Shown: positions 8,236 through 29,067 of the stretch, in pieces
How positions within the stretch are numbered: position 1 is the first letter of the stretch
How the letters are laid out: each line of letters opens with the position of its first letter
Notes under the pieces: generated by a model
Seen by the model: only the letters and a program-made list of their open reading frames with translations
What the model was told of the DNA's origin: nothing
Database searches by the model: none
Made by a program: the position numbers and the translations under genes
Assembly: GCA_019695265.1 (NCBI GenBank)
Contig: JAIBAJ010000029.1
Location: forward strand, 1 to 32,711
Direction of reading: 5' to 3'
Length of the DNA: 32,711 nt
Source: Bacteroidia bacterium
Lineage (GTDB): Bacteria > Bacteroidota > Bacteroidia > JAIBAJ01

Positions 8236-8388
8236 TTGCACCTCGGGCAACGATAGAGGCAAGTAGCCCACAGGACCCCGACGGCGTTAGCCTAGGGGGA
8301 CGAGGACTACAGCCGATAGCGTGACCCGAACGCCCAGGCAAGTTTTTTGGCTTTTGCAGTCCTGTTGTTGGGCGGAGGGGGCCCGCAT
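8236..8388 (-). repeat. Structured dispersed repeat, copy A (153 bp)
   Basis: This is one of five full copies of the same GC-rich element in the window (others at 10991, 15470, 17805, 28913; a truncated one at 32695). In the sense used here it starts with a GCGG-GCCCCCT-CCGC hairpin, has a variable linker of about 35-43 bp, and ends with a conserved core of about 90 bp. The core runs from TTCGGGTCACGCTATCGG to CTCTATCGTTGCCCG. Nested helices pair CGGG with CCCG, GTAGTCC with GGGCTAC, an inner four-base stem (CCCC/GGGG in this copy), and GGC with GCC around a four-base loop. It lies in the gap between the HEAT-repeat pseudogene and the convergent gmhB-like gene. It has no coding capacity that I trust. 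Confidence 0.85.
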
Positions 8389-8521
8389 AATTCATATATT
8401 AAAAATGATTTAACTCTTCCGGATAAAGGTATTTATAACACCTCATTTGTCTACTACAACAACACCCTCGGATTAACCCTTAAAAACTCCTGCCAGCTTA
8501 TCCCATTCTGTTCAAGACCAA

Positions 8522-8563
8522 TTACTCAGGGCATTGAGTAAAATTACTCAATACCCTGAGTAA
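8522..8563. repeat. 20-bp inverted repeat after the gmhB-like gene
   Basis: TTACTCAGGGCATTGAGTAA (8522-8541) and TTACTCAATACCCTGAGTAA (8544-8563) are reverse complements with a single mismatch and only 2 bp between them. Each arm is also a small hairpin by itself (ACTCA...TGAGT), so a cross-shaped fold is possible. It lies 60 bp beyond the gmhB-like stop. There is no T-run after it on either strand, so it is not a classical terminator; a transcript-end stabiliser or protein-binding site is equally likely. Confidence 0.55.
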
Positions 8564-8626
8564 AACAAACCGCCAAAACCATTTGCAAGGAATCTCTTCC
8601 TAAAGCCCAACCACGTTCCGCTTCTC

Positions 8627-9202
8627 TCACTCCTCTTTTCTCACTTTTTCAACTTTCCCAGCCATTTCCCCCAATCCTCCAAACCTCACCGCAATCCAAG
8701 GGTGTGGAAATTCCGTCTCGGGATGAGTTGTAGCCAAAAACACCCCATACATTCCTGCATGGTGGGCAAATTCCATATCACTCAAACGATTGCCTACCAT
8801 GATACTTTTTTCGAAATCAATTTCCGGAAAATCGGTCTTAGCCTGCCACGCCATACCCGGATTGGGCTTGCGGTTGGGTGCAGCATCTTCGATATCAAAG
8901 GCGTAATAAACCTTATCAATGCGACCGCCCGATTCGTTTACCAAGGCTAATAAACGATCAGTAATCTCATTCAAATCCTTCAGTTTGGTAATTCCCCTTC
9001 CAACCCCTTTTTGATTGCTAACTATAACAATCCTTCCAAAAACCTTTGCAAATATGGCCAAGGCCTCCAAAGCGTCTTCATAAAGTTTATAATCCTTCCA
9101 GCCCGAAATATAGCCGTTCCGCTTTTCGTAATTGATTACCCCGTCCCGGTCCAAAAACAAGGTCCAGGTTTTATCGATTTTGCTAAAATCCAATGCTTCC
9201 AC
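8627..9202 (-). CDS. gmhB: HAD-IIIA phosphatase, D-glycero-D-manno-heptose 1,7-bisphosphate 7-phosphatase-like
   Basis: GmhB removes the 7-phosphate from heptose bisphosphate on the way to ADP- or GDP-heptose for lipopolysaccharide. The 191 residues show HAD motif I (LFLDRDGVIN, Asp18 and Asp20), motif II (VIVSNQKGVGRG), a KPNPGM lysine motif III, and a motif IV in MVGNRLSDMEFA where the usual first Asp is Asn. The Cys-His-Cys zinc loop that normally precedes the KP motif in GmhB is absent (YYAFDIEDAAPNRKPNPGM), so this belongs to a zinc-free branch or acts on another sugar phosphate. It directly follows gmhA, which strongly favours the heptose pathway. Confidence 0.8.
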   Translation of the reverse strand: MEALDFSKIDKTWTLFLDRDGVINYEKRNGYISGWKDYKLYEDALEALAIFAKVFGRIVIVSNQKGVGRGITKLKDLNEITDRLLALVNESGGRIDKVYYAFDIEDAAPNRKPNPGMAWQAKTDFPEIDFEKSIMVGNRLSDMEFAHHAGMYGVFLATTHPETEFPHPWIAVRFGGLGEMAGKVEKVRKEE

Positions 9203-9775
9203 CTAAAACAGTCTTGCTTCAACCAATTCACAAAGAATATGGCCCAGTAAAATATGGCATTCTTGTATCCGGGGTGTATCGCCCGATGGAACATTCAATA
9301 AAACATTGCTCAAGGGTTTCAGTTTGCCTCCGCCTTCGCCGGTAAACCCAATGGTTTTCACACCTTTCTCCTTCGCTTTTTCAAAAGCCTTCACAATATT
9401 AGGCGAATTGCCCGAGGTGCTCAATCCAACCAATACGTCGCTTTCCTGCATAATTCCATCCACCAAATGGGCATAAATATCATCATAGCTGAAATCGTTG
9501 GCCAGGGCCGTAATGTAGGAGGTGTTACAGTGAAGCGCTTCGGCAGGTAATGCTTTACGGTTTTTATAAAATCTGCCTGTAAATTCAGCAGCCAAATGTT
9601 GAGCATCGGCCGCACTGCCTCCATTTCCGCAAAAATACACTCGCTTTCCACTTTCAAATGCAACACAAACCAGCTCTATAGCCTGTGCCAGGCGTTCCTG
9701 CAATTCAGCATCCTGAACCAGTTTCAGTTTCACATCGGCCGAAGCCTGCATCAGTTGCTTAATTTCTTCTTTCAT
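9203..9775 (-). CDS. gmhA: Sedoheptulose 7-phosphate isomerase (SIS domain)
   Basis: GmhA converts sedoheptulose 7-phosphate to D-glycero-D-manno-heptose 7-phosphate, the first step of heptose synthesis for cell-surface glycans. The 190 residues form one SIS domain. Recognisable are VYFCGNGGSAADAQHLAAEF (sugar-phosphate loop and catalytic Glu region), LVGLSTSGNSPNIVKAFE, and the C-terminal QECHILLGHILCELVE with the conserved catalytic His. The length is that of the family. The start overlaps the stop of the upstream glycosyltransferase gene by 4 bp (ATGA), and the stop abuts the gmhB-like start, so the three genes are translationally coupled. No hldE or hddA homologue is in view. Confidence 0.93.
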   Translation of the reverse strand: MKEEIKQLMQASADVKLKLVQDAELQERLAQAIELVCVAFESGKRVYFCGNGGSAADAQHLAAEFTGRFYKNRKALPAEALHCNTSYITALANDFSYDDIYAHLVDGIMQESDVLVGLSTSGNSPNIVKAFEKAKEKGVKTIGFTGEGGGKLKPLSNVLLNVPSGDTPRIQECHILLGHILCELVEARLF

Positions 9776-10908
9776 TTGCTTGTTTGGGCTAGTTCAACTA
9801 TACTATCCACCAATACTTTCCAACTATACTTTTTTTTCTCTTCACAAAGATGGGGTAAAAAATGACTTTCTCCCAATCGGTACAACTCTTCCATACGGTC
9901 GGCTATCGATTCCGGATTGGGTTCGGCAATTAAACCGGAATAACCATCCACTACCGAATCGGGCAAACCACCTACACGGGTTACCAACATAGGTTTTTCA
10001 AAATGATAGGCCAATGGGGTTACTCCGCTTTGGGTGGCATTTCGATAAGGTTGAATGACAAAATCTGCGGCACTCAGATAATATTGCACCTCGCTATCCG
10101 AAATAAATTCGGTACGTAAAATTAATTTCTCCCCAATTTCCAGCTCTTTCACCAGTTCATCGTATGGCTTACGGTCTTCATAAAACTCTCCGGCTACCAA
10201 CAAATGAATATCGCTTCCTCTTTCTTTCAAAATCTTCATGCTTCTGAACAAGATATCCAAACCTTTGTATTGTCTGATAAAACCAAAAAACAACACTATC
10301 TTTTTATCTTTTGGCAACTTTAAATAGTCCCTGGCACGTCCTTTCTCTAAGGCTATTCCAAAATTATCGTACAAAGGATGAACCACTAAACGAGATGGGG
10401 CAGCGCTAAAACCCTTTAAATCCTTCCATACTTTTTCGCTCATGGTAATGAAGGCATGAACAGGTTTTACAAAATACCGGGTAAATGCCACATCGCCCGG
10501 TCTCTTCTCGTGCGGAATAACATTATCGGCAATACAAACAATTTTGGTGTGTTTGTTTCCTCTTACCAAGCGTAAAATAGTTCCTAAGCACGGACCCATA
10601 AAAGGCAACCAATAGCGCACCACTACACAATCAGGTTTAAGTTGTCTAAGCTCTTTTCCAACCGAAATCCAGTTCAAAGGATTAACTGAGTTTATCCTTA
10701 CCCGGATATCTAAATCCTTAGGAGGGGCCTCGGTTGAATACTGCGATTTACCCGGAAACAAAAAACCGGGATATTGCAAAGAGAAGGTGTAAATGGTGGT
10801 ATCGAAACCCTGACTTTGAAACTGCCTGGCCAATCGTTCATTAAACGAAGCTAAGCCACCACCCCTAAGTGGATAAGCCGGTCCAATAATTATCACCTTT
10901 TGTTTCAT
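9772..10908 (-). CDS. GT4-family glycosyltransferase
   Basis: This is a GT-B fold retaining glycosyltransferase of 378 residues. The N-terminal acceptor domain starts VIIIGPAYPLRGGGLASFNERLA with the Gly-rich loop. The C-terminal donor domain has KKIVLFFGFIRQYKGLDILF and the sugar-nucleotide region QSGVTPLAYHFEKPMLVTRVGGLPD. The usual E-x7-E motif appears as a variant without the first Glu. It overlaps gmhA by 4 bp, so it probably adds a heptose or a nearby sugar during lipopolysaccharide core or surface glycan synthesis; donor and acceptor cannot be told from sequence. The gene begins about 80 bp from the dispersed repeat at 10991. Confidence 0.88.
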   Translation of the reverse strand: MKQKVIIIGPAYPLRGGGLASFNERLARQFQSQGFDTTIYTFSLQYPGFLFPGKSQYSTEAPPKDLDIRVRINSVNPLNWISVGKELRQLKPDCVVVRYWLPFMGPCLGTILRLVRGNKHTKIVCIADNVIPHEKRPGDVAFTRYFVKPVHAFITMSEKVWKDLKGFSAAPSRLVVHPLYDNFGIALEKGRARDYLKLPKDKKIVLFFGFIRQYKGLDILFRSMKILKERGSDIHLLVAGEFYEDRKPYDELVKELEIGEKLILRTEFISDSEVQYYLSAADFVIQPYRNATQSGVTPLAYHFEKPMLVTRVGGLPDSVVDGYSGLIAEPNPESIADRMEELYRLGESHFLPHLCEEKKKYSWKVLVDSIVELAQTSK

Positions 10909-10990
10909 TTCCCGGACAAAGATAGTTGGGGAAAGGATTGATTCATGCCCCTAACTTTTTCCTGGCCATTGTTAGATTTTTTATTCATTT

Positions 10991-11143
10991 GGCGGGCCCC
11001 CTTCGCCCTACTTTATTGCCTGCGAAACCCAAATATCCTGCACCGGGCTTCGGGTCACGCTATCGGCTGTAGTCCTCGGCCCACTTGGCTAGCGCCGCGT
11101 GCTCCTGTGGGCTACTTGCCTCTATCGTTGCCCGATGGTGCAA
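10991..11143 (+). repeat. Structured dispersed repeat, copy B (153 bp)
   Basis: Same element as at 8236. Here the terminal hairpin is the variant GGCG-...-CGCC, the linker is the longest, and the inner stem reads CCAC against GTGC with one mismatch around GGC-TAGC-GCC. It directly precedes the left palindrome array of the transposase locus. Confidence 0.85.
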
Positions 11144-11176
11144 ACCCAAGCTCACCCCTTCTTACCCATCCCCCCC

Positions 11177-11371
11177 GACCCCAGCGGGGTCACATATCGG
11201 TACAAAATCCCAATCCTTTACCCTCTCCTCCCCCCGACCCCAGCGGGGTCACATATCAATACAAAACCCCAATCCCTTTACCCTCTCCTCCCCCCGACCC
11301 CAGCGGGGTCACATATCAATACAAAACCCTAATCCCTTTACCCTCCCCTCCCCCCCGACCCCATCGGGGTC
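11177..11371 (+). repeat. Left REP-like palindrome array (4 units, 59-61 bp apart)
   Basis: Four copies of GACCCCAGCGGGGTC (the last is GACCCCATCGGGGTC) start at 11177, 11236, 11296 and 11357, each followed by ACATATC or AAATATC and then TACAAAA. The spacer is a pyrimidine-rich stretch that is itself repeated. Each unit is a perfect or near-perfect hairpin. The array lies just past the 3' end of the transposase gene and is inverted relative to the array at 12043, as in REP-transposase systems. Confidence 0.85.
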
Positions 11372-11436
11372 AAATATCGATACAAAATCTAGGAAGCATT
11401 TCGGATTTTTCCTTCCTGCATTGAAATTTCATCCTT

Positions 11437-11895
11437 TCATTGCCATTCGAATAAATATTCCTTTTTATAAGGAACTTCAAACTTTTCTAATAAGGCCATG
11501 AATTCCGCTTGGAAAGATTTTTTGGAATGATGCTCCTTTTGATTCTCAATATAACGAATCACACGAGACTTTTCAGATTCTGCATATGAAAAAGCCCCAA
11601 ACCCAATTTGCCAATAAAACTTAGAAGGGGTCAACCCATTTGTATTTATCCAAACATTGGTGGATTTCTTTATTTCCCTTACCAAATCAGAAAGATTACA
11701 ATCTGGATTCATTCCAATGAATAAATGCAGATGGTCTGGCATACCATTTATTGCCAACATTTTCTGCCCCTTATTTTGAACAATTCCGGTAATGTATTTA
11801 TAAAGGTCCTTTTCCCATTGCGGATTAATTAATGATTGCCGCCCTTTAACAGTTAAGACTAATTGAATGTAAATTTTTGAAAATGTATTTGCCAT
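11437..11895 (-). CDS. IS200-like Y1 transposase, likely REP-associated tyrosine transposase (RAYT-like)
   Basis: Y1 HUH transposases cut and join single-stranded DNA at hairpins. The 152-residue protein has the HUH motif in MPDHLHLFIGMN, the QIGFGAFSYAESE block, and the catalytic Tyr in VIRYIENQKEHHSKKSF, with all key residues present. I chose Met at 11895 (MANTFSKIYIQLVLTVKG) because family members start there; the frame extends 26 further residues upstream but that part is hydrophobic and unlike the family. Inverted arrays of GACCCC palindromes sit on both sides, the arrangement expected when the enzyme recognises these hairpins. It interrupts an envelope gene cluster. No accessory TnpB is present. 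Confidence 0.9.
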   Translation of the reverse strand: MANTFSKIYIQLVLTVKGRQSLINPQWEKDLYKYITGIVQNKGQKMLAINGMPDHLHLFIGMNPDCNLSDLVREIKKSTNVWINTNGLTPSKFYWQIGFGAFSYAESEKSRVIRYIENQKEHHSKKSFQAEFMALLEKFEVPYKKEYLFEWQ

Positions 11896-11988
11896 AAAAA
11901 AAGAATAAAAAATAATCATACAAAGAAATAGGGCGAAACATTTCAATTGGTAAGAACAAAAACCATTAATCAACAGAAAAATTTTTCG

Positions 11989-12006
11989 AAGGATTTAAAA
12001 ATCCTT
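11989..12006. repeat. 8-bp stem hairpin upstream of the Y1 transposase
   Basis: AAGGATTTAAAAATCCTT is a perfect 8+8 bp inverted repeat with a 2-base centre, about 94 bp upstream of the transposase start and followed by TTT. It could be the left-end hairpin of an IS200-type element or a terminator for plus-strand transcription. Confidence 0.5.
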
Positions 12007-12042
12007 TTTGGGGCAATATTTTTAAAAATTTGTTAATCCAAT

Positions 12043-12378
12043 CGATATGTGACCCCGATGGGGTCGTTCGGATTCGCCCATTCTTCCAATAAACCTAACG
12101 ATATGTGACCCCGATGGGGTCGTTCGGATTCGCCCATTCTTCCAATAAACCTAACGATATGTGACCCCGATGGGGTCGGCTGGATCCGGTCATTCATCCA
12201 ATCGATATGTGACCCCGATGGGGTCGGTCGGATCTGGCCATTCATCCTAACGATATGTGACCCCGATGGGGTCGGTCGAATCCGGCCATTCATCCAATTA
12301 ACCTAACGATATGTGACCCCGATGGGGTCGGTTGGATCCGGCCATTCATCCAATCGATATGTGACCCCGATGGGGTCG
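12043..12378 (-). repeat. Right REP-like palindrome array (7 units, periods of 56 or 48 bp)
   Basis: Seven copies of CGATATGTGACCCCGATGGGGTCG, with the 15-bp palindromes starting at 12051, 12107, 12163, 12211, 12259, 12315 and 12363. Spacing is exactly 56, 56, 48, 48, 56 and 48 bp; the 8-bp difference is the presence or absence of an AAACCTAA-like block. Spacers carry repeated GGATCCGGCCATTCATCC-like text. Relative to the left array the unit is inverted, so both arrays point the ATATCG side in opposite senses around the transposase gene. Open frames read through the array are artefacts of its periodicity. Confidence 0.88.
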
Positions 12379-12491
12379 GGGTGATTTAGTCATTGGGAAA
12401 GCCATGGATTGTTTCCAAATGGCGAGGGAAAATGAATCAATAAATTACAAACGGTTAGGAAGAAAGGGGTCAGGGGAAAATAGAATTCTGC

Positions 12492-14264
12492 TTAAATAAG
12501 CTTTAGCGATTCTTCTTTTTTAAACTGTAATTCAAACAATCTCCTGTATGCGCCATTTTCTTTTTGCATGAGTTCGGCATGGCTTCCCTGCTCCACAATT
12601 TCGCCTTTATCCATTACCAAAATACGGTCGGCAAATTGAACTGTTGCTAAACGATGGGCGATAATAATACTGGTTCTTCCTTGGGTTAACTTCTCCAATG
12701 CCGATTGAATTAGCCACTCGCTCTCCGTATCAACTGAAGAGGTTGCTTCGTCTAATATTAGTATTTTAGGATTGTAAACATAGGCTCTTACAAAGGCTAT
12801 CAATTGACGCTGCCCTACCGAAAGCATATTTCCTCTTTCCTTAACATCAAACAAATATGAACCAGGTAATTTTTCTATAAAATCATGGGCACCAATAGCC
12901 TTGGCAGCCTGTTCCATGTCATGCATTGAAATATCCTGATTCAGCAATGAAATGTTATCGGCTATGCTACCCGAAAACAAAAAAACATCTTGCGGTATTG
13001 CTGCAATATTTTGTCTCAAACTGGCCAGTTCATACTCCCTTATATTATGGCCATCCACTAAAATCTGACCCTTGTTGTATTCATAATAGCGGGTTAATAA
13101 ATTGATGATAGATGATTTTCCTGCACCGGTTGCACCAACAATCGCCAATTTCTCCCCTTTACCAACCGAAAAATCAACGCCTTTCAGCACCCAATCCTCA
13201 GCATTGTAAGCAAACCAAACCTCCTTAAACCGTATCTCACCATGAATATCGGAAGCGTTTTTTTCGCCATTATTTTCTATAAACTCTTCGGTATCCAGCA
13301 CTTTGAAAATCCTTTCGGAACTCACCACGCCCATTTGCAAGGTATTGAATTTGTCTGCCAGGTCGCGCATAGGCCGAAACAACATATTGATGTACATAAT
13401 AAAGGCAACAATGCTGCCCGGAGAAGCATTTCCTTCCAGCACATGTTTGGCGCCCCACCAAACCACCAATCCTATGCTGATTGCCGATAAAACTTCTACC
13501 ACAGGTAAAAACACACTGTAGGCCCAAACACTGCGGTTATTGGCATCGCGGTGGTTGGCATTGATGAGCTTAAAAGCTTCCAATTCCTCCTTTTCCCGAT
13601 TGAAAATTTGGATAATGCTCATTCCTGTTATGTGTTCCTGTAAGAATGCGTTTAAGCTGGATACCGCATTTCGAACGTCCTGAAAAGAAGATTTTATAGC
13701 GTTCTTGAACCAGCGAGTAGATAGCAGTAAAAGAGGAACCGTAGAAATGGATATCAAAGTCATTCTCCAATCTACCATCAACATGACCACTACAGCCACC
13801 ACCAATCGAAGTATATCTCCAATAATTACCAGGAATCCTTCCGAAAACACATCGGCCAGGGTTTCAATATCGCTGATGACCCGGGTAACCAAGGTTCCAA
13901 TGGCGGTATTATCGAAGTATTTAAGTCGGAGGTGGGCAATGTGACTAAACAGTTTGGTTCTGACATCGAGAATAACCGCCTGTCCTAAAAAGTTAGTTAG
14001 CCAGGAATAATAAAATTGCAACACCCCTTCCAGCAGAAGCAAGGCCAACATTACCACCACCATCAGTCTTAAGCCTGAAAGGTCAAACTGAGCCACATAA
14101 TTATCGATGGTGTATTGAATCATCATGGGACGAATGGGCCCCAATACAGCCAAAACAATGGTTAATACAAAAGTGGTATACAATTGCGTTCGGTAAGGAT
14201 TGGCATAGGAAAAAACCCTTGCCAAAATCTTCATATCGAATGCTTTACCGGTATTTTCGCTCAC
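12492..14264 (-). CDS. MsbA-like ABC exporter (membrane and ATPase domains fused)
   Basis: A half-size ABC exporter of 590 residues that would work as a homodimer in the inner membrane, probably flipping a lipid or lipid-linked glycan. The N-terminal 330 residues hold the six-helix transmembrane domain (first helices around 20-45 and 60-85). The ATPase domain has Walker A GATGAGKSS, the signature LSVGQRQL, Walker B ILILDEATSSVD and the switch His in IIAHRLATV, all intact. It starts 6 bp after wecB ends, so the two are co-transcribed. Lipid A export is plausible from the surrounding heptose and amino-sugar genes, but drug or peptide export cannot be excluded. Confidence 0.9.
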   Translation of the reverse strand: MSENTGKAFDMKILARVFSYANPYRTQLYTTFVLTIVLAVLGPIRPMMIQYTIDNYVAQFDLSGLRLMVVVMLALLLLEGVLQFYYSWLTNFLGQAVILDVRTKLFSHIAHLRLKYFDNTAIGTLVTRVISDIETLADVFSEGFLVIIGDILRLVVAVVVMLMVDWRMTLISISTVPLLLLSTRWFKNAIKSSFQDVRNAVSSLNAFLQEHITGMSIIQIFNREKEELEAFKLINANHRDANNRSVWAYSVFLPVVEVLSAISIGLVVWWGAKHVLEGNASPGSIVAFIMYINMLFRPMRDLADKFNTLQMGVVSSERIFKVLDTEEFIENNGEKNASDIHGEIRFKEVWFAYNAEDWVLKGVDFSVGKGEKLAIVGATGAGKSSIINLLTRYYEYNKGQILVDGHNIREYELASLRQNIAAIPQDVFLFSGSIADNISLLNQDISMHDMEQAAKAIGAHDFIEKLPGSYLFDVKERGNMLSVGQRQLIAFVRAYVYNPKILILDEATSSVDTESEWLIQSALEKLTQGRTSIIIAHRLATVQFADRILVMDKGEIVEQGSHAELMQKENGAYRRLFELQFKKEESLKLI

Positions 14265-14270
14265 AAGGTT

Positions 14271-15347
14271 TTAATTTTTTCCGGCCAACAATGCCCTGCA
14301 AATGGTATCGCAGGCTTTACCTCCGCCATACAAAGATGAATCGGCAGTGAAATTTTCATTTTTAAAAGTATTCCAGGCTTTTAAAATATGTTCCTTATCG
14401 GCACCAACCAAGGTATTTGCGCCAACATTCACCAATTCAACCCACTCGGTTTGATCGCGGGTAGTGATGCAGAATTTATTAAAAAAGTAGGCTTCTTTTT
14501 GCAAACCTCCACTGTCGGTAATTACCAAGCGGGAATTGGAAGTAAGGCTAATCATATCCACATAACCAACCGGATCAATTACAATAAACCGAGGATGTAG
14601 TCCTTGGCTTTCAATTATTTTTTTAGTTCTGGGGTGCAAAGGCAAAACCACCGGAATTTCGTTGTGTATGGTATTTAAAGCATCTACAATCTGAGACAAG
14701 CGATTGGGGTCGTCTGTGTTCTCGGCCCGATGTAAGGTAGACAATACGTAGTTGGAAGGAGTAAGTCCGAGTTTATTCAAAATGGCCGGACCTGCTTTTT
14801 GAGCATAAAACAAGGCTGCATCTTGCATAACATCGCCCGATAAAACAATTTGGGATGAAAAGTGATCGAAGCCTTCGTTTTTCAGGTTATCGATAGCGGT
14901 TTGGGTAGGACAAAAAAGCCACTGACTAACCCGATCGGTTAAAATTCGATTTACCTCTTCGGGCATTGCCATATTAAAACTACGTAAACCGGCTTCCACG
15001 TGGATAATTGGAACATGGATTTTTACAGCAGCCAGAGCTCCTGCCAAGGTACTGTTGGTATCGCCGTAAACCAACACATAATCAGGATTTTGCTCCTGAA
15101 TTACCTTTTCAATCCCTTCTAACATTCGCCCTGTCATAGCCCCATGCGATAACCCGTTTACTTCCAGGTTAAAGTCGGGTTTAGGTATTTCCATTTCTCT
15201 GAAAAACACTTCACTCATATTTTCGTCGAAATGTTGTCCGGTATGGAGAATCAGCTCTTGTATTTCAGGGTACTTTTTTATTGCCCTTGATAAAGCTCCT
15301 GCTTTTATGAATTGTGGCCTTGCACCAACAATGGTTAATATTTTCAT
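14271..15347 (-). CDS. wecB: UDP-N-acetylglucosamine 2-epimerase (non-hydrolysing)
   Basis: WecB interconverts UDP-GlcNAc and UDP-ManNAc, supplying ManNAc-type sugars for surface polysaccharides. The 358 residues show the family landmarks in order: GARPQFIK at the N-terminus, HTGQHFDENMS, VYGDTNSTLAGALAA, HVEAGLRS, MPEEVNR, LHRAENTDD and TDSGGLQKEA. I use the Met at 15347 (MKILTIVGARPQ); the frame extends 13 residues further but that part is not conserved. It is first of a pair with the ABC exporter. The divergent phosphatase gene lies beyond the dispersed repeat at 15470. Confidence 0.95.
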   Translation of the reverse strand: MKILTIVGARPQFIKAGALSRAIKKYPEIQELILHTGQHFDENMSEVFFREMEIPKPDFNLEVNGLSHGAMTGRMLEGIEKVIQEQNPDYVLVYGDTNSTLAGALAAVKIHVPIIHVEAGLRSFNMAMPEEVNRILTDRVSQWLFCPTQTAIDNLKNEGFDHFSSQIVLSGDVMQDAALFYAQKAGPAILNKLGLTPSNYVLSTLHRAENTDDPNRLSQIVDALNTIHNEIPVVLPLHPRTKKIIESQGLHPRFIVIDPVGYVDMISLTSNSRLVITDSGGLQKEAYFFNKFCITTRDQTEWVELVNVGANTLVGADKEHILKAWNTFKNENFTADSSLYGGGKACDTICRALLAGKN

Positions 15348-15469: not shown

Positions 15470-15622
15470 TTGCACCCCGGGCAACGATAGAGCCAAGTAG
15501 CCCACAGTACCCCGACGGCCTTAGCCTAGGGGTACGAGGACTACAGGCGATAGCGTGACCCGAACGCCAATTTAAAAATGTTTGAATTTTGCAGGTATTT
15601 TGTTGGCGGAGGGGGCCCGCAT
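15470..15622 (-). repeat. Structured dispersed repeat, copy C (153 bp)
   Basis: Same element as at 8236. This copy has the longest perfect inner helix, GTACCCC paired with GGGGTAC, around GGC-TAAG-GCC. It lies in the intergenic space between the divergent wecB and PhoD-like genes. Confidence 0.85.
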
Positions 15623-17804: not shown

Positions 17805-17957
17805 ATGCGGGCCCCCTCCGCCCAACCATTTTTTTGTTAAAACCCAAAACATCTTGCATGGCGTTCGGGTCACGCTATCGGCTGTAGTCCTCGTCCCACT
17901 AGGCTAACGCCGTAGTGGTCCTGTGGGCTACTTGCCTCTATCGTTGCCCGACCTAAG
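17805..17957 (+). repeat. Structured dispersed repeat, copy D
   Basis: Same element as at 8236. The inner helix is CCACTA with TAGTGG, a compensated version of the CCCC/GGGG seen in copies A and C. The last few bases (after TTGCCCG) differ from the GGTGCAA of other copies. Confidence 0.82.
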
Positions 17958-18082
17958 CCCCAGGCATTTCAGCTCTTTCAAAAGGAAACGTTGTCATTGT
18001 CTTTTTACCCAAAATAGGGTTTGCTGAAAAAGTTAGAAACACAATAGATGAAAGGCGACAAGGCGACGCTGTATAAATAATA

Positions 18083-18246
18083 CCGAATGTACATTATGTT
18101 TAGTCCAATTTTAGGTATTAATTCCTATTGAAAAATAGGCCTAACATACTGTATACTCGGCATTTATACCGAATGGACAAAATGTATAGTCCAATTTTAT
18201 ACTTAAATTTACTTGAAAAAATCGGACTAACATTTTGTATCCTCGG
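18083..18246. repeat. Two tandem 78-bp imperfect palindromes (period 86 bp)
   Basis: Units at 18083-18160 and 18169-18246 each start CCGAATG and end CTCGG. Within each, the two 23-24-bp ends are imperfect reverse complements (for example ACAAAATGTATAGTCC against GGACTAACATTTTGT in unit 2), leaving a central part of about 30 bases. Both units have the same length and are separated by 8 bp, so they look like duplicated hairpin elements. They lie in a stretch of about 960 bp (17664-18627) that holds no convincing gene. Confidence 0.65.
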
Positions 18247-18260
18247 TACTTACCAATCTA

Positions 18261-21429: not shown

Positions 21430-22311
21430 CTATCTTTTAACAAAAACATAAATTTGGCTACTACAAGTACCTGAATTCAACAGTGCTTTCAGGTTAGAAA
21501 TAAATCCGATTAAAAAAGCTTTTACAATATTACCGCCCGACTTATACTTTTCACTTAACATCGAAACATAAAAGGAATCGAACCACATTGGGTGAACTCC
21601 TTTCATTTCAAAACCATATCTCTTGCAAAGTTGCATTATGGTATCGGGAGAAAAATGCCATATGTGACGAGGAACATCATAAGCCGCCCAAAAATCTTTA
21701 TAATAAGCAGCATCGTAAGAAGTATAATTAGGAACTGCTATAATCAGCACTCCATTTTTTTCCAATAATTCATAATACGAACTCAAATAATAATCCAAAC
21801 GATGTACGTGCTCCAACACATGCCACATCGTTATTACACCTATAGAACCTGATTCATAGTTCTCCTTAACAAATTCAGGTTGGGGTTGAAATTGAAACTT
21901 AGATTCAACTAAAGATCTTGCTGAATTATTTGGTTCTACTCCTTGAACCTTCCATCCTGCCGATTTGCAAGCACCCAAAAAATCGCCGGTGCCACAACCT
22001 ACATCTAAAATATTTTTTGAAGGAGATAAAGATCCCACCATTTCCACTTTTCTTCCAATGGTATACGATTTTACCATTTGGTAGAGACGGTTAATAATTC
22101 CCTCTTTCGTGTCAGAATGTGAAACATACTCCTGACTTTCGTAATATGGTCCAATTTGTCTTTCATCCGGACGAGGATTGGTAAGTAACAGTCCACAACC
22201 ATTGCACTGAACCAAGTAAAAATCTTCCTTGCTGATGGAATGATCTTTAAGCTTCATAAATGGCTTAAATTCCGAATGACTACAGATTGGACAGAGGGTT
22301 AATTTCTCCAT
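21430..22311 (-). CDS. Class I SAM-dependent methyltransferase with N-terminal zinc ribbon
   Basis: The protein has 293 residues from the chosen Met. It opens with a four-Cys zinc ribbon (LCPICSHSEF and VQCNGCGLLLTNPRP). The Rossmann fold follows, with SAM motif I ILDVGCGTGDFLGACK, the acidic VEPN after strand 2, and VITMWHVLEHVHRLDYYL as motif II. This architecture (Methyltransf_11/23 with a CxxC head) is common in sugar or surface-glycan methyltransferases of Bacteroidota; the substrate is unknown. I start at 22311 because the longer version would translate through the parS-like palindrome at 22322 and adds only unconserved residues. It follows mnmG on the same strand with 34 bp between. 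Confidence 0.87.
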   Translation of the reverse strand: MEKLTLCPICSHSEFKPFMKLKDHSISKEDFYLVQCNGCGLLLTNPRPDERQIGPYYESQEYVSHSDTKEGIINRLYQMVKSYTIGRKVEMVGSLSPSKNILDVGCGTGDFLGACKSAGWKVQGVEPNNSARSLVESKFQFQPQPEFVKENYESGSIGVITMWHVLEHVHRLDYYLSSYYELLEKNGVLIIAVPNYTSYDAAYYKDFWAAYDVPRHIWHFSPDTIMQLCKRYGFEMKGVHPMWFDSFYVSMLSEKYKSGGNIVKAFLIGFISNLKALLNSGTCSSQIYVFVKR

Positions 22312-22321
22312 TTTAAAAAAA

Positions 22322-22337
22322 TGTTCCACGTGGAACG
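22322..22337. promoter_or_regulatory. parS-like palindrome (site 1)
   Basis: TGTTCCACGTGGAACG differs at one base from the symmetric 16-mer TGTTCCACGTGGAACA, which matches known ParB-binding parS sites (Pseudomonas uses TGTTCCACGTGGAACC). It lies between the mnmG stop and the methyltransferase start. No parA or parB gene is in the window. Confidence 0.6.
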
Positions 22338-22345
22338 CTATCAAT

Positions 22346-24220
22346 TTATCTACCTAAATGAACAAGTAAAACCGAGATATCACTAGGACTTACACCTGAA
22401 ATCCGGCTAGCTTGTCCAACAGTTCGTGGTTTAATTCTACTAAGTTTTTGTCTTGCTTCGGTGCTTAATGAAAGTAAGGAATGGTAATCAAAAGTATCAT
22501 AAAGCTCTATTCCATCAAAACGATTTAACTTATTCGCCATCTCTTCCTCTTTGTGAATATAGCCCTCGTATTTCAATAATACCTCAGCTGAAGTAAAATA
22601 CTCCTGTGCTCTATCTCCTAAACCGGAAAACAATTCAGATAATCCCTGAGATTTATCCTTTAACCATTCAATAGAAATTTCGGGACGGGACAAAACGGAT
22701 ATCATCTTAACCTTGTGTGGTATTGGAGAGGAACCTATCTCACTCAAAGCTGAATTAATCTCTTCCGGACCAATGGATGTATTCCTAAAGAATTTAATAA
22801 TTTGCTCCGTTCCGGATACCTTTTCTTGAACAGCTTCTAACCTATCCTTACTCGCTAAACCAATATCAAACCCTAACGGTGTTAACCTTACATCAGCATT
22901 ATCTTGACGAAGCAAGGTCCTAAACTCAGCCCTGGAAGTAAACATACGGTAAGGCTCCTCGGTACCTTTAGTAACCAAATCATCAATCAGAACACCAATG
23001 TAAGCCTCTGAACGTTTTAAAACAACCTTCTCCTCACCATGAATTTTCCTATGTGCATTAATCCCAGCCATTAAACCCTGACAAGCAGCTTCTTCATATC
23101 CGGTGGTGCCATTGATTTGTCCGGCAAAATATAGGTTTTCAACTAACTTGGTTTCTAGAGTTAAACTTAATTGAGTAGGAGGAAAATAATCATATTCAAT
23201 GGCATAACCGGGTCTAAACATCTTCACATTTTCAAAACCCTTAACCTTTCTCAAGGCGGCATATTGCACATCCTCAGGTAAAGATGTGGAAAATCCATTG
23301 ACATAAATCTCCACTGTGTTCCAACCCTCAGGTTCAACAAACAATTGGTGCTGATTCTTATCCGAAAAACGCTCAATCTTATCTTCAATACTTGGACAAT
23401 AACGAGGACCAATTCCTTGAATTCTCCCTGAAAACATCGGACTCTTTTCAAATCCGGTGCGCAAAATATCATGAACCTCATCGGAGGTATAGGTTAACCA
23501 ACATGGTACTTGCTCCTTTAATACCGCTGTTGAATTTGAATAAGAAAATTTTTCAGGAACAGCATCTCCGGGTTGAGGAACCATCACCGAATAATCCAAA
23601 GATCGACCATCGATACGAGGAGGAGTTCCTGTTTTCATACGCCCAGCTTCAAAACCAATATCAACCAATTGCTCCGTTATCCCGGTAGAAGCCTTCTCAG
23701 CAGCCCGACCACCACCAAAATTTTTCTCACCAATATGAATAATGCCATTTAAAAAGGTCCCATTGGTTAAAACAACAGCTTTCGCATTGATTTCCAACCC
23801 CATACCAGTAACAACACCCCTCACCTTACCTTCTTTAACAATCAGTTTGGAAACCATATCCTGCCAAAAATCCAAATTGGGGGTTTCCTCCAACATCCTT
23901 CTCCACTCTGCTGCAAACATCATACGGTCATTCTGAGTCCTAGGACTCCACATGGCTGGACCCTTGCTTCTATTCAGCATCTTAAACTGTATAGCCGATT
24001 TATCACTAACTATACCGGAATAACCACCCAATGCATCTATTTCACGAACAATCTGACCTTTGGCAATACCGCCCATAGCCGGATTACAACTCATTTGAGC
24101 TATGGTCTGCATATTCATAGTCACCAACAAGGTTTTACTACCCATATTGGCAGCAGCAGCAGCAGCTTCACAACCGGCATGGCCAGCACCTACAACAATA
24201 ACATCATATTCTTCAAACAT
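22346..24220 (-). CDS. mnmG: tRNA uridine-5-carboxymethylaminomethyl modification enzyme MnmG (GidA)
   Basis: MnmG works with the GTPase MnmE and uses FAD, NADH and a folate carrier to build the cmnm5U34 wobble modification in tRNAs. The 624 residues are full length. The dinucleotide loop is [21 protein letters not shown], followed by the family pieces [24 protein letters not shown] and [10 protein letters not shown]. The second FAD region is [25 protein letters not shown], and a helical C-terminal MnmE/tRNA-binding part ends [21 protein letters not shown]. In many bacteria mnmG lies near the replication origin with parAB; here parS-like palindromes lie on both sides of the gene. Confidence 0.97.
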
Positions 24221-24228
24221 AGTAAAAT

Positions 24229-24244
24229 TGTTCCCCGTGGAACA
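24229..24244. promoter_or_regulatory. parS-like palindrome (site 2), upstream of mnmG
   Basis: TGTTCCCCGTGGAACA differs from the symmetric 16-mer at a single central base. It lies 9 bp before the mnmG start codon, so ParB spreading or another palindrome-binding protein could affect mnmG expression. Confidence 0.55.
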
Positions 24245-24286
24245 TCAAAAAAATTGGGGCGCAAAGGTAATGGATAATTGCACTAA

Positions 24287-25354
24287 TCAATAGTCAATCT
24301 TACGAAGGGTGTTCGGATGAAAAGCTTTCCAGGAGTGCCAGAACTCCTGAAAACTTAACATGGTTGAATCAGTTAAATAATCCTTTACAAAAAAATCATG
24401 ACTCTCTTCATTTGCATAAATTTCAATAACAGAATTTCCAATTGAGTCTACTAAAGGACCCCTCTTCACAACATCATTCCATAAATAAGCCTTTGAAATA
24501 CCATTGAATTCAACCCCAATAATCCAGGCTTTGTCAGACCAAATACCCGTTGTATCTACACCAATTAAACCACCCTTAACCTCACCAACTGCAAACCCAT
24601 CAATAGACCGATACTCATCCTTATAACGAGAATCCTCTTTAAGAAAATAAGAACCCGGAAATAGTTTTACCCATTCCGCTACCGAACACTGAACAAAAGG
24701 TAATTCAGTCAATTTCCTACCTTTAAACGGACCGGCAATACATTCACCTGAAGCTTGTCTCCACCACGAACCGGTTTCATTATCTTCAAGCATGGCATTA
24801 AATAAATCCATTCCCACCAGCCTAAACCGCAATAGTTTTCCATCCACAACAGGAGAATAAACACGACCTGAATGACATACAGTACAATAGCTTAGAAGAT
24901 AAGGTTGATTTGCTAAACTATCTAGAATATAGTGATGATAACCAAGCATCTCAATGGGATAAGCTTTTGCTTCATCATTCCTATTGATACCAATAATTAT
25001 TCTAGAAGATTCATATGCCTTAGCATCCACATATGAAAGTCTTTCAAGTTGTTTGAACATTGCCTCTGCAGAGAATACATAGCCAACACCATAATAAACC
25101 AAACAAACAAACATAGCTCCTAAAAAACTAATAACTTTCCCAAGTGTAGAAATCTTAAAACATCGCCACATCGCTAGTAAAAAACCCAAACCAATCAACG
25201 ATCTAAACACCCACCTATAAACGTGAATAGGGTAGCTCAACCAAACCATTTCCGAGGTTTGACTACCAGGAAAAGGCATAATAAAGTACAGTTTTAAAAA
25301 TTCAAATACCAGTAAAAGTATAAAGAACAAAACGAACCATAAGTAAGCCTTCAT
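24287..25354 (-). CDS. DUF3179-domain membrane protein
   Basis: Function unknown. The first 100 residues hold about three hydrophobic helices (roughly 3-27, 47-66, 72-96). The rest matches DUF3179: INRNDEAKAYPIEMLGYHHYILDSLANQPYLLSYCTVCHSGRVYSP, with a conserved CxxC(H) pair, then a GSWWRQASGECIAGPFKG block and LPFVQCSVAEWVKLFPG. The CxxCHSG motif recalls a metal or redox site, though it is also formally a heme c motif. It is the third gene of a tightly spaced run (cytochrome c fusion, hflX, this gene; 6 bp after hflX). Homologues are often annotated only as DUF3179, so no function is assigned. Confidence 0.8.
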   Translation of the reverse strand: MKAYLWFVLFFILLLVFEFLKLYFIMPFPGSQTSEMVWLSYPIHVYRWVFRSLIGLGFLLAMWRCFKISTLGKVISFLGAMFVCLVYYGVGYVFSAEAMFKQLERLSYVDAKAYESSRIIIGINRNDEAKAYPIEMLGYHHYILDSLANQPYLLSYCTVCHSGRVYSPVVDGKLLRFRLVGMDLFNAMLEDNETGSWWRQASGECIAGPFKGRKLTELPFVQCSVAEWVKLFPGSYFLKEDSRYKDEYRSIDGFAVGEVKGGLIGVDTTGIWSDKAWIIGVEFNGISKAYLWNDVVKRGPLVDSIGNSVIEIYANEESHDFFVKDYLTDSTMLSFQEFWHSWKAFHPNTLRKIDY

Positions 25355-25360
25355 GATTAT

Positions 25361-26554
25361 CTAAAACAACAAATTATCATACGGGAATCTACCCACATGA
25401 ATAGTTTTAACCCTATCATATACCAAACTTCTAAACTCCTCTAAATTTTCCTTCTGTAAAGCAGAAATAAAAACTACTTCACTACCCTGACCCATCCAGG
25501 TTCTCTTCAAATCATCCAGTGAAAAATTCTCTTTTTTAACCGGCGATAAATCATCTTCTGCTTTCGGAGTGTAATGAAAAGCATCAATTTTATTAAAGAC
25601 CATGATCGTTTGTTTGTCGCCTGCACCAATTTCTAACAAGGTCTCTTTCACAACCCGTATATGTTCTTCAAACTGAGGATGACTGATATCAACCACATGC
25701 AGTAACAAATCAGCTTCTCTCACCTCATCCAAAGTCGATTTAAAACTTTCTACCAATTGCGTAGGTAATTTTCGAATAAAACCAACTGTATCAGTAAGTA
25801 AAAATGGCAAATTACCTATAACCACCTTCCTAACAGTAGTATCTAAGGTTGCAAACAACTTATTTTCCGCAAATACATCCGATTTAGAAATACAATTCAT
25901 CAGGGTACTCTTTCCAACGTTCGTATACCCAACCAGGGCAACCCTCACCATTTCACCCCTTCCTTTTCGTTGAGTAGCCATTTGGCGGTCAATAGTTACT
26001 AATTGTTCCTTAAGCTTAGAAATCTTATCCCGTATAATCCGTTGGTCAGTTTCTAATTGAGTTTCCCCCGGGCCACGTAAACCAATCCCTCCTTTCTGTC
26101 TCTCCAAATGGGTCCACATGCGCTTCAACCTTGGTAGAATATATTGATATTGAGCAAGTTCCACTTGAGTCCTGGCATGAGAAGTACGAGCTCGTTGGGC
26201 AAAAATATCCAATATTAACCCGGTTCTATCCACCACCTTAACACCAAATTCCTTCTCTGTATTCCTAAGCTGACTTGGACTTAATTCATCATCAAAAACA
26301 ACTACTTCAATCTCATTCTCCTTAACATAGTCTACAATTTCAGCCACCTTACCGGAACCGATAAAGGTGCGCGGATCAGGTTTTTCAAGCTTTTGGGTAA
26401 ACCTTCGAACAGGAAGTAATCCGGCAGTATCGGCTAAAAAAGCCAATTCATCCATGTATTCCTGAATATCTTGCTCGTTTTGAAAACGATAAATTAAGCC
26501 AACTAATACAGCCTTCTCTTCCGTCTTAGGCTTTACAGTTTTCCGTTCAATCAT
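25361..26554 (-). CDS. hflX: Ribosome-associated GTPase HflX
   Basis: HflX binds the 50S subunit and splits stalled ribosomes after stress. The 397 residues show the N-terminal HflX domain with the glycine-rich linker GGIGLRGPGETQLETDQR, a coiled helix (about 170-195), and the G domain: G1 GYTNVGKST, G2 region around ATLDTTVR, G3 DTVGF, and G4 NKID. Length is typical. It lies 10 bp after the cytochrome c fusion gene and 6 bp before the DUF3179 gene, so it is likely in one transcript with them, an unexplained partnership. Confidence 0.95.
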   Translation of the reverse strand: MIERKTVKPKTEEKAVLVGLIYRFQNEQDIQEYMDELAFLADTAGLLPVRRFTQKLEKPDPRTFIGSGKVAEIVDYVKENEIEVVVFDDELSPSQLRNTEKEFGVKVVDRTGLILDIFAQRARTSHARTQVELAQYQYILPRLKRMWTHLERQKGGIGLRGPGETQLETDQRIIRDKISKLKEQLVTIDRQMATQRKGRGEMVRVALVGYTNVGKSTLMNCISKSDVFAENKLFATLDTTVRKVVIGNLPFLLTDTVGFIRKLPTQLVESFKSTLDEVREADLLLHVVDISHPQFEEHIRVVKETLLEIGAGDKQTIMVFNKIDAFHYTPKAEDDLSPVKKENFSLDDLKRTWMGQGSEVVFISALQKENLEEFRSLVYDRVKTIHVGRFPYDNLLF

Positions 26555-26564
26555 CCTTTTCTAA

Positions 26565-27212
26565 TTAATGTCCCACCGGATGAAATTTATCCAGGAACAC
26601 TACCACCGCATTGCGTTCTTCTTCTTTTAAAGTATTCTGAAAAGATGGCATAATTACTTTTCCCATGGTAATAATAGTCAAACGTTGCTGATAATCCATA
26701 GTAGAAGCTGTTAAATCAGAAGCTCCTTGTAAACCTGCTTTTCCATCCTCACCATGGCAACGTTGGCAATGCATAATATAAACTGCTTGTCCATGAGCCT
26801 TAATATCATAAGCGGAAGAACCAGGATCCGTTTCAACCCCACTAATGGTTGGATTGGTAAAAGTGATACTGCGGGTACGTGCTACACCAAAAGCATAAAT
26901 CAATAAAACAATGGACGCAGTCATCGCAACCTTATTCTCTTTTTTAACACCAACAATGGCTAAAGGAATTGAACCTATGACAGCAGCAATTTTTACATAA
27001 AACCATGAACCTAACTCAGCGGCCTGAGTAGCTAAATAAATACCGGTAGCAAGAAACAAAGTACTTATTACCATCTCCGGAATTTTAGTCCATTTACTCC
27101 ATTTTTCTAATCCATCCTTTCTGTCGGTCAACAAGTAATAGGCCTTTACAAAGTAAATAATCATGAAAAGTACCACACTTAAAATGTGGGTGTGCATCAT
27201 ACCTGTGTGCAT
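26565..27212 (-). CDS. SirB-like membrane domain fused to cytochrome c
   Basis: The first 112 residues form four hydrophobic helices (about 8-26, 44-62, 70-88, 95-112) resembling the SirB family, including KAYYLLTDRKDGLEKWSKWTKIPEMV. The C-terminal 80 residues are a class I cytochrome c with the heme site CQRCH at 149-153 and a likely axial Met188 in GKVIMPSFQ. The product would be a membrane-anchored periplasmic electron carrier. The fused layout resembles proteins annotated simply as cytochrome c in Bacteroidota. It is the first gene of a run with hflX. It may be near a respiratory oxidase elsewhere, but none is in view. Met1, Met5 or Met6 could each be the start. Confidence 0.75.
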   Translation of the reverse strand: MHTGMMHTHILSVVLFMIIYFVKAYYLLTDRKDGLEKWSKWTKIPEMVISTLFLATGIYLATQAAELGSWFYVKIAAVIGSIPLAIVGVKKENKVAMTASIVLLIYAFGVARTRSITFTNPTISGVETDPGSSAYDIKAHGQAVYIMHCQRCHGEDGKAGLQGASDLTASTMDYQQRLTIITMGKVIMPSFQNTLKEEERNAVVVFLDKFHPVGH

Positions 27213-27351
27213 AAGCTTAAATTTTTAGGATTGCAAAGATAGGATTAGAGATTAGACAATAGACATCGAACAACAGATTCTAAACTTTTAAGCAAAATTA
27301 GCTGAGGTCAATTCCGGTTTCAATAAAAATTATCCACCTCAAACCACCAAC

Positions 27352-28305
27352 CTATACTAATCCGGCCAGTTTTGAAATTTCCAACATTCTACGCATCGGT
27401 TTCTCTGCCAATATTCGCAATTCTTCCTGCATAAGCAATTCCGGCTTTTCATTCTTTAAACATAAATACACTTTTTCCAGGGTATTCAGCTTCATGTGCG
27501 GACAATCATTACAAGCACAATTGTTATTTGGAGGGGCTGGAATGAAAGTTTTACCCGGATTTGCCTTTTGCATTTGATGAATAATGCCGGTCTCAGTTAC
27601 CACAATAAATTCTTGAGCTGAACTTCTACTTGTATAATTTAACAATGCGGTGGTAGATCCAATGTAATCAGCCAATTTCAAAACCGGTTCTTCACACTCC
27701 GGATGGGCAATAACTAAAGCTTGCGGATTCAAATCTTTCAAATCCTGAATACGTTGCTGCGAAAATATCTCATGTACCATGCAACTACCATCCCAAAGAA
27801 TCATTTCCCTACCGGTCTTTTGCATAATATATCTACCTAAATTTTTGTCTGGTGCAAAAATGATTGGCTGATTTTTAGGTATGCTATTTACGATCGCCTC
27901 AGCATTACTACTGGTGCAAATTATATCGCTCAAGGCTTTAATTTCTGCCGTACAATTAATATAACTTACAACTACATGATTGGGATACCGATCTCGAAAA
28001 GCTTTAAATTCAGCGGGTGGACAGCTATCGGCCAAGGAACAACCTGCCTTTAAATCCGGTAAAATTACCTTGGTATTCGGATTCAAAATCTTGGCAGTTT
28101 CAGCCATAAAATGAACTCCGGCAAACAAAATAATATCCGCATCACTCTTGGCTGCTTGTTGACTTAAGCCCAAACTATCTCCAATATAATCGGCAATATC
28201 CTGAATATCAGGGTCTTGATAAAAATGCGCTAGAATAACCGCATTCTTCTCTTTCTTCAAACGAGCTATTTCCTCGAACAAATCCAAATCAACACCAATT
28301 TTCAT
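27352..28305 (-). CDS. nadA: Quinolinate synthase NadA
   Basis: NadA condenses iminoaspartate with dihydroxyacetone phosphate to quinolinate in NAD synthesis, using a 4Fe-4S cluster. The 317 residues are full length and include [23 protein letters not shown] at the N-terminus, [11 protein letters not shown], and the three cluster cysteines: Cys89 in [10 protein letters not shown], Cys175 in WDGSCMVHE, and one of Cys263/265/268 in the [10 protein letters not shown] cluster. nadB and nadC are not adjacent. The start at 28305 abuts a long gene-free region that would have to contain its promoter. Confidence 0.96.
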
Positions 28306-28912
28306 GTTATCAACAGTAATTTAAATTATTAGAATTTTTTATTTTTTTAAATCTTCAAAACAAAAAAGAGATAGGTATAATAATATGCCTGTTGAAACTG
28401 TTGAAAACCTCCAGTTTTTCTGTTTTTCTACCAGTTTTTTTTCCAGGTTATTAGAAATTGAAAGTAGGCTTATTAACAAGAAAAAATAGGAAAATTCCTA
28501 CAAAATCAACGAATTGCAAAGATACTAACACTTGGTTAAGAACTTAAATGAACAGCAATAAAAAATGTAAAATTTTCAACCTGACTATACCTGCCTAACT
28601 CGTTCATAAGTCCTGTATAGGTGATTATAACTCCTTTTTATTTATCCGGTTTTTGGACTATTAGGCAAGAGATTTAATATCTCCCTTTATTTGGTTTTAA
28701 GAAAATATGAACATAGCGTTAGGGAAATGAACAAGGTTTGTTAACCTAAATCAAACACGCTTAATAGAAATGAACAATTGGATGAAAAGGTCGTGAACTT
28801 ATTCACAAAAAGGCTACGGAAAGCGCATGAATGCTATAAACTTTATAAAAAGTAGGTTGAAATAAAAATAATTTCCCGAGTTTGAATCCGATTTGTAGGG
28901 ATATTTTTTAGT
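28306..28912. other. AT-rich gene-free region with DnaA-box-like 9-mers
   Basis: About 600 bp without a gene I can support. It holds TTATCAACA (28307-28315), TTATTAACA (28470-28478) and TTATTCACA (28799-28807). Only the last fits the DnaA consensus TTATNCACA; the others differ at one position. It also has poly-T stretches around 28415-28455 and four copies of ATGAACA (28547, 28707, 28727, 28770). An origin is possible but not shown; a long promoter region between the divergent nadA and ABC ATPase genes is the simpler reading. Confidence 0.3.
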
Positions 28913-29067
28913 ATGCGGGCCCCCTCCGCCTTCCGGGTGTTTGCAAATCCTTTACCCGATTGCGTTTAGGCGTTCGGGTCACGCTATCGGTTGTAGTCCT
29001 CGTAGCACTTGGCTAGCGCCGCGTGCTCCTGTGGGCTACTTACCTCTATCGTTGCCCGAGGGTGCAA
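28913..29067 (+). repeat. Structured dispersed repeat, copy E (155 bp)
   Basis: Same element as at 8236. The inner helix is GCAC with GTGC around GGC-TAGC-GCC, a second compensated version of this stem. It lies between the divergent nadA and ABC ATPase genes; 29068-29257 beyond it shows no recognisable feature. Confidence 0.85.

Follow-up and report, generated by a model that had tools for sequence, protein, structure and literature searches.

The stretch of DNA analysed here, called the window, comprises 32,711 nucleotides of contig JAIBAJ010000029.1 (C29) from the draft assembly of a Bacteroidia bacterium (GCA_019695265.1; 3.83 Mb, 213 contigs). It carries five complete copies of an interspersed repeat, named A to E in order of position, and a sixth, F, that is cut off. 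On sequence comparison, the repeat is a lineage-specific, derived, high-copy form of Flavo-1 (RF01705), which is annotated in Rfam as a small RNA (sRNA). The best account of the repeat, given a probability of about 0.5, is that it is a non-autonomous mobile element whose folded single strand is recognised by a hypothetical enzyme. More tentatively, the same may apply to the whole family. Rather than an sRNA, Flavo-1 would then represent a novel class of non-autonomous mobile element in which a single strand folds into a three-way junction, the arms of which can be exchanged; a hypothetical junction-reading enzyme would move it, and its hosts would afterwards keep it. The family is widespread in Bacteroidota. 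The repeats, whose fold with three arms is strictly maintained, behave more like a small mobile DNA element than like the small RNA gene as which they are catalogued, although an RNA role is possible.

Compensatory base changes between the window copies, claimed in a preliminary description, are real, and comparison of window-type and phylum-wide alignments with shuffles supports a selected single-strand structure. The favoured fold is a three-way junction, in which the ends pair with each other (P1) and enclose a side arm (P1b) together with a long arm (P2 to P5). An alignment of 69 distinct copies, at least two of which are partial duplicates because overlapping loci show the same copy twice, has both-side changes in 21 of the 37 pairs of this fold, with 90 cells against 19.0 in shuffles and 0/500 shuffles as high. 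Paired cells make up 96.4%, compared to at most 44.1% with the partners slid, and 100% in P1. Exchanges are seen in each outer helix: in the window-type alignment a C-G pair of P1 (CGGGC/GCCCG) becomes T-A in two copies and G-C in one, C-G of the three-base part of P1b (CCC/GGG) becomes T-A or A-T in three copies, and its five-base part (CGCCN/NGGCG) occurs with three pair types within the window (CGCCC/GGGCG, CGCCA/TGGCG, CGCCT/AGGCG). A four-base stem reads as first described, CCCC/GGGG in copies A and C, CCAC/GTGG in D, GCAC/GTGC in E and CCAC/GTGC in B. The outer helices proposed at that time (GCGG/CCGC and CGGG/CCCG) did not hold up, with both-side changes in 1 of 10 pairs and a score equal to that of shuffles; the three-way junction fits the changes better. 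A structure of the RNAalifold type, close to the earlier proposal, shows both-side changes in 17 of 34 pairs in the 69 copies (77 cells, 18.1 when shuffled); the alignment had been fitted to this earlier model, and its bias favours that model, not the three-way junction.

The phylum-wide alignment of 31 copies has both-side changes in 10 of 21 pairs (52 cells against 13.0 in shuffles, 0/500 as high); its members were picked by an exact 18-base motif, which makes the core invariant partly by construction, so that the covariation at this level rests on P1 and P3. Between copies, the sequences of stems and even of entire inner arms are swapped with pairing kept. One arm position reads T-G in 25 of 30 sequences across the phylum and C-G in four of them, and T-G throughout the window's lineage (68/68); on the opposite strand, which is Rfam's, it would mostly be a C/A mismatch. 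Among 90 copies P1 consists of free complementary pentamers in 17 forms, of which GCGTG/CACGC is the commonest; this set was pre-filtered for at least four of five P1 pairs and therefore gives no evidence for P1. An integron recombination site of the attC type, used in folded form by a tyrosine recombinase, would share with the element a folded strand, loops left unpaired and a terminal arm that varies widely in length. The R boxes of attC are GTTRRRY/RYYYAAC, and since P1 can be any complementary pentamer and lacks such boxes (in the same filtered set), this origin is very improbable.

Relatives were sought in named genomes by a scan with CGGGTCNSGCTATCSGCT. Among the 80 loci listed, 66 hold the element by inspection, and the other 14, judged by eye to be chance matches, were excluded from context counts. 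Hosts among the listed loci are Flavobacterium, Chryseobacterium, Sphingobacterium, Chitinophagaceae, Cytophagaceae, Saprospiraceae, Tannerellaceae and others. The common form of the relatives is TTTGGGCGTGCCCCT..CGGGTCGGGCTATCCGCT-arm-CCGCTNCTATCCCTCACGCA, with varying complementary pentamers as P1, an arm stem of AAGTCC/GGGCTT, ATCTTTT/AAAAGGAT or others, and a P1b that ranges from minimal (CCC/GGG) to long. A model of this form (R2), built from 31 of 49 copies that pass a sequence pattern, matches in 45 of 296 genomes of the window's own phylum, with up to at least 14 copies per genome, and finds all five window copies, B strongly (expect value, E, 1.4e-6) and the others weakly (0.0033, 0.013, 0.1 and 0.2). 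The window-type model (R1) matches in one of the 296 genomes, the window's own (E 1e-6), and gives 16 weak matches in 35 loci of relatives, the best with E 0.0013. Two mixed copies in the window's genome (loci L074 and L076) have the common core within window-type ends. Together with the R2 matches they argue that the window form shares descent and core fold with Flavo-1. Two copies on one viral contig (L274, L278) combine an ACG/CGT core with the common P1 and a short P1b, a form midway between the common one and that of the window.

The preliminary description had not recognised the family. For window-type copies this stands: no match to RF01705 was obtained in the window at gathering score, in a focused search of copy D, or in four window-type loci at E 1. 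The related copies do match. At low threshold Flavo-1 is found at the element in 3/3 relatives (E 0.0004, 0.0008 and 0.3) and on plasmid p5482 (E 0.004), each below the gathering score of 42 bits. At that score 10 of 17 relative loci match: in nine the match lies at the motif, invariably on the opposite strand, and in the tenth at another copy. In 8 of the 17 the motif copy stays below it, each with the AAGTCC/GGGCTT arm. In the window's genome, two copies of the common form score 41.8 and 39.8 bits. Membership in a described family, named at the outset as something that would speak against the proposal, is therefore in part what was found. The element and Flavo-1 share the phylum and the conserved core (GGGAUAG..AGCGG ... 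AGCGGAUAGCCCG on Rfam's strand), but the Rfam model is limited to the P2-P3 arm, with 76 positions read on the opposite strand, and includes neither P1 and P1b nor the three-way junction. Flavo-1 is listed for Bacteroidetes by Weinberg et al. 2010 (PMC2864571) and is among the most abundant sRNA families in PMC9029176; the passages that name it in these two sources and in PMC9723704 give no function. A search of the literature on the core sequence, Bacteroidetes repeats and RNA motifs brought up no described element recognised as a match besides Flavo-1. Derivation from rRNA or tRNA was ruled out, as ARAGORN and Rfam gave no such match.

At least 150 copies are matched by the covariance model in the window's genome, and the exact core motif occurs there 120 times (62 forward, 58 reverse). 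Across genomes with the element, copy number runs from few to more than 100. Several contigs start inside a copy or within about 160 bases of one, and as the window itself ends in a copy, the repeat probably breaks the assembly. Two near-identical copies (L003, L004) have the unit and about 70 bp downstream in common and differ in their upstream flank. Weak sequence to about -60 and +70 is common to many copies of this genome and may reflect a target preference or an older, longer unit; no fold was obtained for this extended stretch. Inverted pairs of copies, 386-728 bp from outer end to outer end, occur in L050, L058, L062, L074, L076 and L083, and in four of these six one member has a swapped inner arm (GTAGTCCAA...TTGGAGCTAC).

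The element has sharp edges, with conservation fading within about 10 bases of its ends. Among the 90 copies TTT precedes it in 50 and A or G follows in 86; the left edge in the window's genome is TAT, followed by P1. Within the genus of G084, three genomes (L250, L251, L284) carry a copy at one gene junction and 18/18 other orthologous junctions lack it, the 18 being the fetched junctions with both flanks aligned at this one site. Another site is occupied by copies in three species (L119, L144, L090), one of them with a different arm, and one orthologous copy (L097) is without part of the core. Copies were found on 58 plasmid records, 55 of them from Bacteroides or Phocaeicola and 48 predicted to be conjugative; plasmid p5482 has two. 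Viral contigs carry copies as well, including one Microviridae genome with a single copy in the sense of the coding strand. The coding strand of Microviridae is the packaged strand. A 9.2-kb viral contig (L327) has three copies, two one way and one the other way. Some copies lie 33-82 bp from genes for RadC (L098, L109) or of the RteC type (L101 by Pfam, L112 by similarity); RteC is a regulator of conjugative transposons. The proposal of a non-autonomous mobile element is thus supported by copy number, sharp ends and the presence/absence site, with no mobiliser found.

Under this proposal a hypothetical trans-acting enzyme would recognise the folded single strand, which might be exposed in replication, in transfer, in the genomes of single-stranded DNA (ssDNA) phages, or as RNA, and the unit from P1 to P1 would be inserted after T-rich sequence. 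In the window's lineage, P1b would have grown by about 45 nt and P2 pairs would have changed from GGG/CCC to ACG/CGT before the form spread to at least 150 places. Resident copies would then be kept at intergenic sites, where the rigid fold would probably also affect transcript ends. Miniature inverted-repeat transposable elements are similar in being short, non-coding and dispersed, with terminal inverted complementarity (here P1). Unlike them, the element has a P1 of 5 bp and of free sequence in place of a fixed transposase-specific repeat.

Several results weigh against the mobile-element reading, among them the sense orientation of copies and the slow change of orthologous ones described further below. 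Neither a target-site duplication nor a base-exact empty site was obtained, the empty sites being too diverged (about 69-78%) for the junction to be placed exactly. Single-copy folding energies do not favour the outer fold of the three-way junction, and the choice of the phylum-wide copies by motif has been mentioned. At Watson-Crick positions elsewhere, 30 G-U and 26 A-C departures reveal no strand preference; set against the T-G position, this leaves the strand used here favoured, not proven. When open reading frames (ORFs) within 2.5 kb of the element in the 80 loci were clustered, no cluster extended to more than four loci, and a scan of nine neighbour ORFs found no transposase. A recurrent neighbour gene as partner was rejected: there is one four-locus cluster (RadC by Pfam in 2/3 scanned members), RteC stands beside L101, and the rest are ordinary genes. 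Y1_Tnp matches are present in 36/45 element-bearing and 174/251 other genomes, with no significant difference (p 0.16). None of 30 loci of REP-associated tyrosine transposases (RAYT; REP, repetitive extragenic palindrome) found with a query resembling subclass 2.6 has the element.

The preliminary suggestion that an ssDNA (Y1) transposase moves the repeat is accordingly not supported, since Y1_Tnp is not matched at E 0.001 in 9 of the 45 genomes with the element and the 30 RAYT loci are without the element; the absence from nine genomes leaves room for a lost enzyme. It is likewise quite unlikely that the element is the REP sequence of a RAYT (TnpA-REP, Y1 HuH) transposase. Such an origin would suit a multi-copy intergenic hairpin with a T-rich left flank; copy B has the start of a Y1 ORF at a distance of about 290 bp, and the one element found in G049 adjoins the one Y1 gene found there. 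Both Y1 genes of the window's genome, and that of G049, have other palindromes, however, the RAYT loci are as given above, and G218 and G290, two genomes rich in the element (13 copies or more in each), are without a Y1_Tnp match at the same threshold. The two Y1_Tnp genes of the window's genome each stand amid palindromes of their own, unlike the element. In the window, a Y1 (IS200-like) transposase lies between two tandem palindrome arrays (GACCCC..GGGGTC, period about 48-61; positions 11173-11384, 11437-11973 and 12030-12389), and the element as REP of this gene was rejected in view of these separate arrays on both sides. Its sequence contains YIENQKEHH, which is the signature of RAYT subclass 1.2 in the relevant part of PMC6006769, where no REP is given for that subclass. 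In L057 (1260-1450) the second Y1_Tnp gene of the genome is preceded by GACGGTTTAAACCGTC palindromes, which also adjoin the element in L022. The Y1 gene of G049 (L262) likewise stands amid palindromes. On the side of a REP origin, PMC6006769 reports 'atypical secondary structures' flanking the Bacteroidetes RAYT subclass 2.6.

REP sequences and the bacterial interspersed mosaic elements (BIME) associated with RAYT resemble the element in their many intergenic, folding copies, the number of which varies between species. The element differs in being larger (about 75-155 nt and more), in its three-way junction, in the lack of a GTAG/GTGG foot and in the lack of a Y1 link; in place of such a foot at a short hairpin, the left edge is mostly TTT (50/90) or TAT, then P1. 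The ends of IS200/IS605 insertion sequences and their non-autonomous derivatives would be comparable in the folded strand, the T-rich left edge and the absence of a visible duplication. They differ in their Y1 link and in having two subterminal hairpins, where the whole element is one junction.

The main rival, possible but rather unlikely, is an RNA element, whose folded strand would act in transcripts (in 3' untranslated regions or between genes), either bound by an RNA-binding protein of Bacteroidota or protecting ends, and which would have spread by recombination or hitch-hiking and been kept as useful. Orientation bears on it from both sides. In the window's genome 43/57 copies lie downstream of a gene and in sense with it (median gap 82 bp, p 1.5e-4). 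On viral contigs 13/14 copies lie in the same way behind an ORF (p 0.002), most of them at a distance of about 40 bp or less; the viral count comes from a hand list of 17 copies, of which 16 have an ORF upstream (15 in sense, the other one not), and two near-duplicates were removed from it. By ORF calling, both copies of p5482 are also placed in sense behind an ORF, although a hypothetical gene on the minus strand is annotated across the second one. These orientations fit an RNA equally well, and those of the viral contigs and of the Microviridae genome fit both a single-strand DNA target and an RNA function. Other chromosomes show no bias, with 50 sense and 58 antisense copies by an automatic pattern that also takes chance matches, and one viral copy (L327) is antisense to both neighbours. 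Terminator-like hairpins are enriched within 110 bp upstream (8/67 and 8/66, compared to 30/870 random stretches; 2/64 on the other side), which an RNA element would accommodate. Its own promoter was not found, as the motif TAnnTTTG occurs within 60 bp upstream in 1/90 copies (9/90 ahead of Rfam's strand, 3 in each of two other controls). The part of PMC9723704 that deals with Flavo-1 in F. psychrophilum reports several 5' transcribed regions coinciding with hits, the hits being indistinctly sense or antisense and many of them untranscribed, with no consistent transcription. The patchy distribution (45/296 genomes) also speaks against an RNA element.

Orthologous copies appear constrained, as the RNA rival would expect, and their slow change relative to the flanks is not predicted by pure mobility. 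In four independent ortholog pairs the element has 13 differences in 391 positions and the flanks 206 in 2100 (p 6e-6), a rate about threefold slower; adjacent intergenic stretches of 60 bp in the same pairs have 87 in 471. These four were summed from six comparisons and give singly p 0.006, 0.006, 0.06 and 0.18; the remaining two point in the same direction (p 0.11 and 0.23). Two of the four pairs were chosen because both members carry the 18-base motif; without those 36 motif positions the count is 13/355 (p 5e-5), and the pairs not chosen by motif give 4/177 against 87/900 on their own (p 5e-4). Slow change could be due either to constraint or to gene conversion, and the divergence of the L250 type from the consensus argues for constraint. 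The conserved copy L250/L251 is antisense to both neighbour genes, which is a misfit with an RNA acting in sense alone.

Constraint in antisense orientation would be explained by an element that insulates or helps termination in both directions. As a GC-rich cruciform or hairpin it would stop transcription or exonucleases coming from either side, and its spread and constraint would follow from that. Intergenic sites near gene ends, and the terminator T-runs that some copies follow, agree with this idea. It leaves unexplained why the same internal-loop sequence occurs across the phylum with the stems exchanged (in sets partly chosen by that sequence), and the edge alignment shows no T-run after the element; such a role is unlikely.

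Within the window, the sequences of the five complete copies and the cut copy fit the preliminary description at all positions, and its statements on composition and placement were borne out: G+C content is 51-56% in the copies (with 20-bp flanks) and 38.7% in the whole window, and all five lie outside recognisable genes. ORF calls that overlap copy B (10945-11424, 11085-11501) look spurious, the first being without a Pfam match. Por_Secre_tail and PG_1098 domains are among those of the encoded proteins and, together with the relatives in named genomes, point to Bacteroidota. In BLAST, copy D matches the other four with E 1e-47 to 8e-31, and a covariance model of 34 copies finds all five at E 6e-38 or better, the five being part of its own training sequences; two weak opposite-strand matches of the same model lie on copies A and D (E 2e-4 and 3e-4).

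Copy A extends over 8236-8388 on the minus strand, with P1 at 8381-8385/8244-8248, P1b at 8377-8379/8325-8327 and 8370-8374/8331-8335, P2 at 8312-8322/8250-8260, P3 at 8301-8310/8263-8272, P4 at 8295-8298/8276-8279 and P5 at 8290-8292/8283-8285. Copy B (10991-11143, plus strand) has P1 at 10993-10997/11130-11134 and P1b at 10999-11001/11052-11054 and 11004-11008/11044-11048 (alignment register off by one); its long arm consists of P2 (11057-11067/11118-11128), P3 (11069-11078/11106-11115), P4 (11081-11084/11099-11102) and P5 (11087-11089/11094-11096). Copy C, again on the minus strand (15470-15622), forms P1 from 15615-15619/15478-15482 and P1b from 15611-15613/15559-15561 and 15604-15608/15565-15569 (CGCCA/TGGCG), followed by P2 at 15546-15556/15484-15494 (GCC/GGC swapped), P3 at 15535-15544/15497-15506, P4 at 15529-15532/15510-15513 and P5 at 15524-15526/15517-15519. 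Copy D occupies 17805-17957 on the plus strand, with P1 at 17808-17812/17946-17950, P1b at 17814-17816/17867-17869 and 17819-17823/17860-17863, P2 at 17872-17882/17934-17944, P3 at 17884-17893/17922-17931, P4 at 17896-17899/17915-17918 and P5 at 17902-17904/17909-17911. The corresponding helices of copy E (28913-29067, plus strand) are P1 28916-28920/29054-29058, P1b 28922-28924/28976-28978 and 28927-28931/28968-28972 (CGCCT/AGGCG), P2 28981-28991/29042-29052 (GGT/ACC), P3 28993-29002/29030-29039, P4 29005-29008/29023-29026 and P5 29011-29013/29018-29020. Copy F (32695-32711, minus strand) is the 3' end alone, as contig C29 stops inside the element. A second dispersed repeat is present at 18080-18251 in the form of two imperfect palindromes of 86 nt in tandem (ATACCGAATG...); resembling sequence was seen by eye next to element copies in L007, L072 and L083.

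If the repeat is indeed a folded mobile single-strand element, with the strand opposite to Rfam's as the functional one and a larger structure than that modelled, the Flavo-1 family would need re-modelling and automatic 'sRNA' annotations would need revision. A junction-reading enzyme of Bacteroidota would then have to be sought, for which a genome with at least 150 copies of one form would be a natural start.

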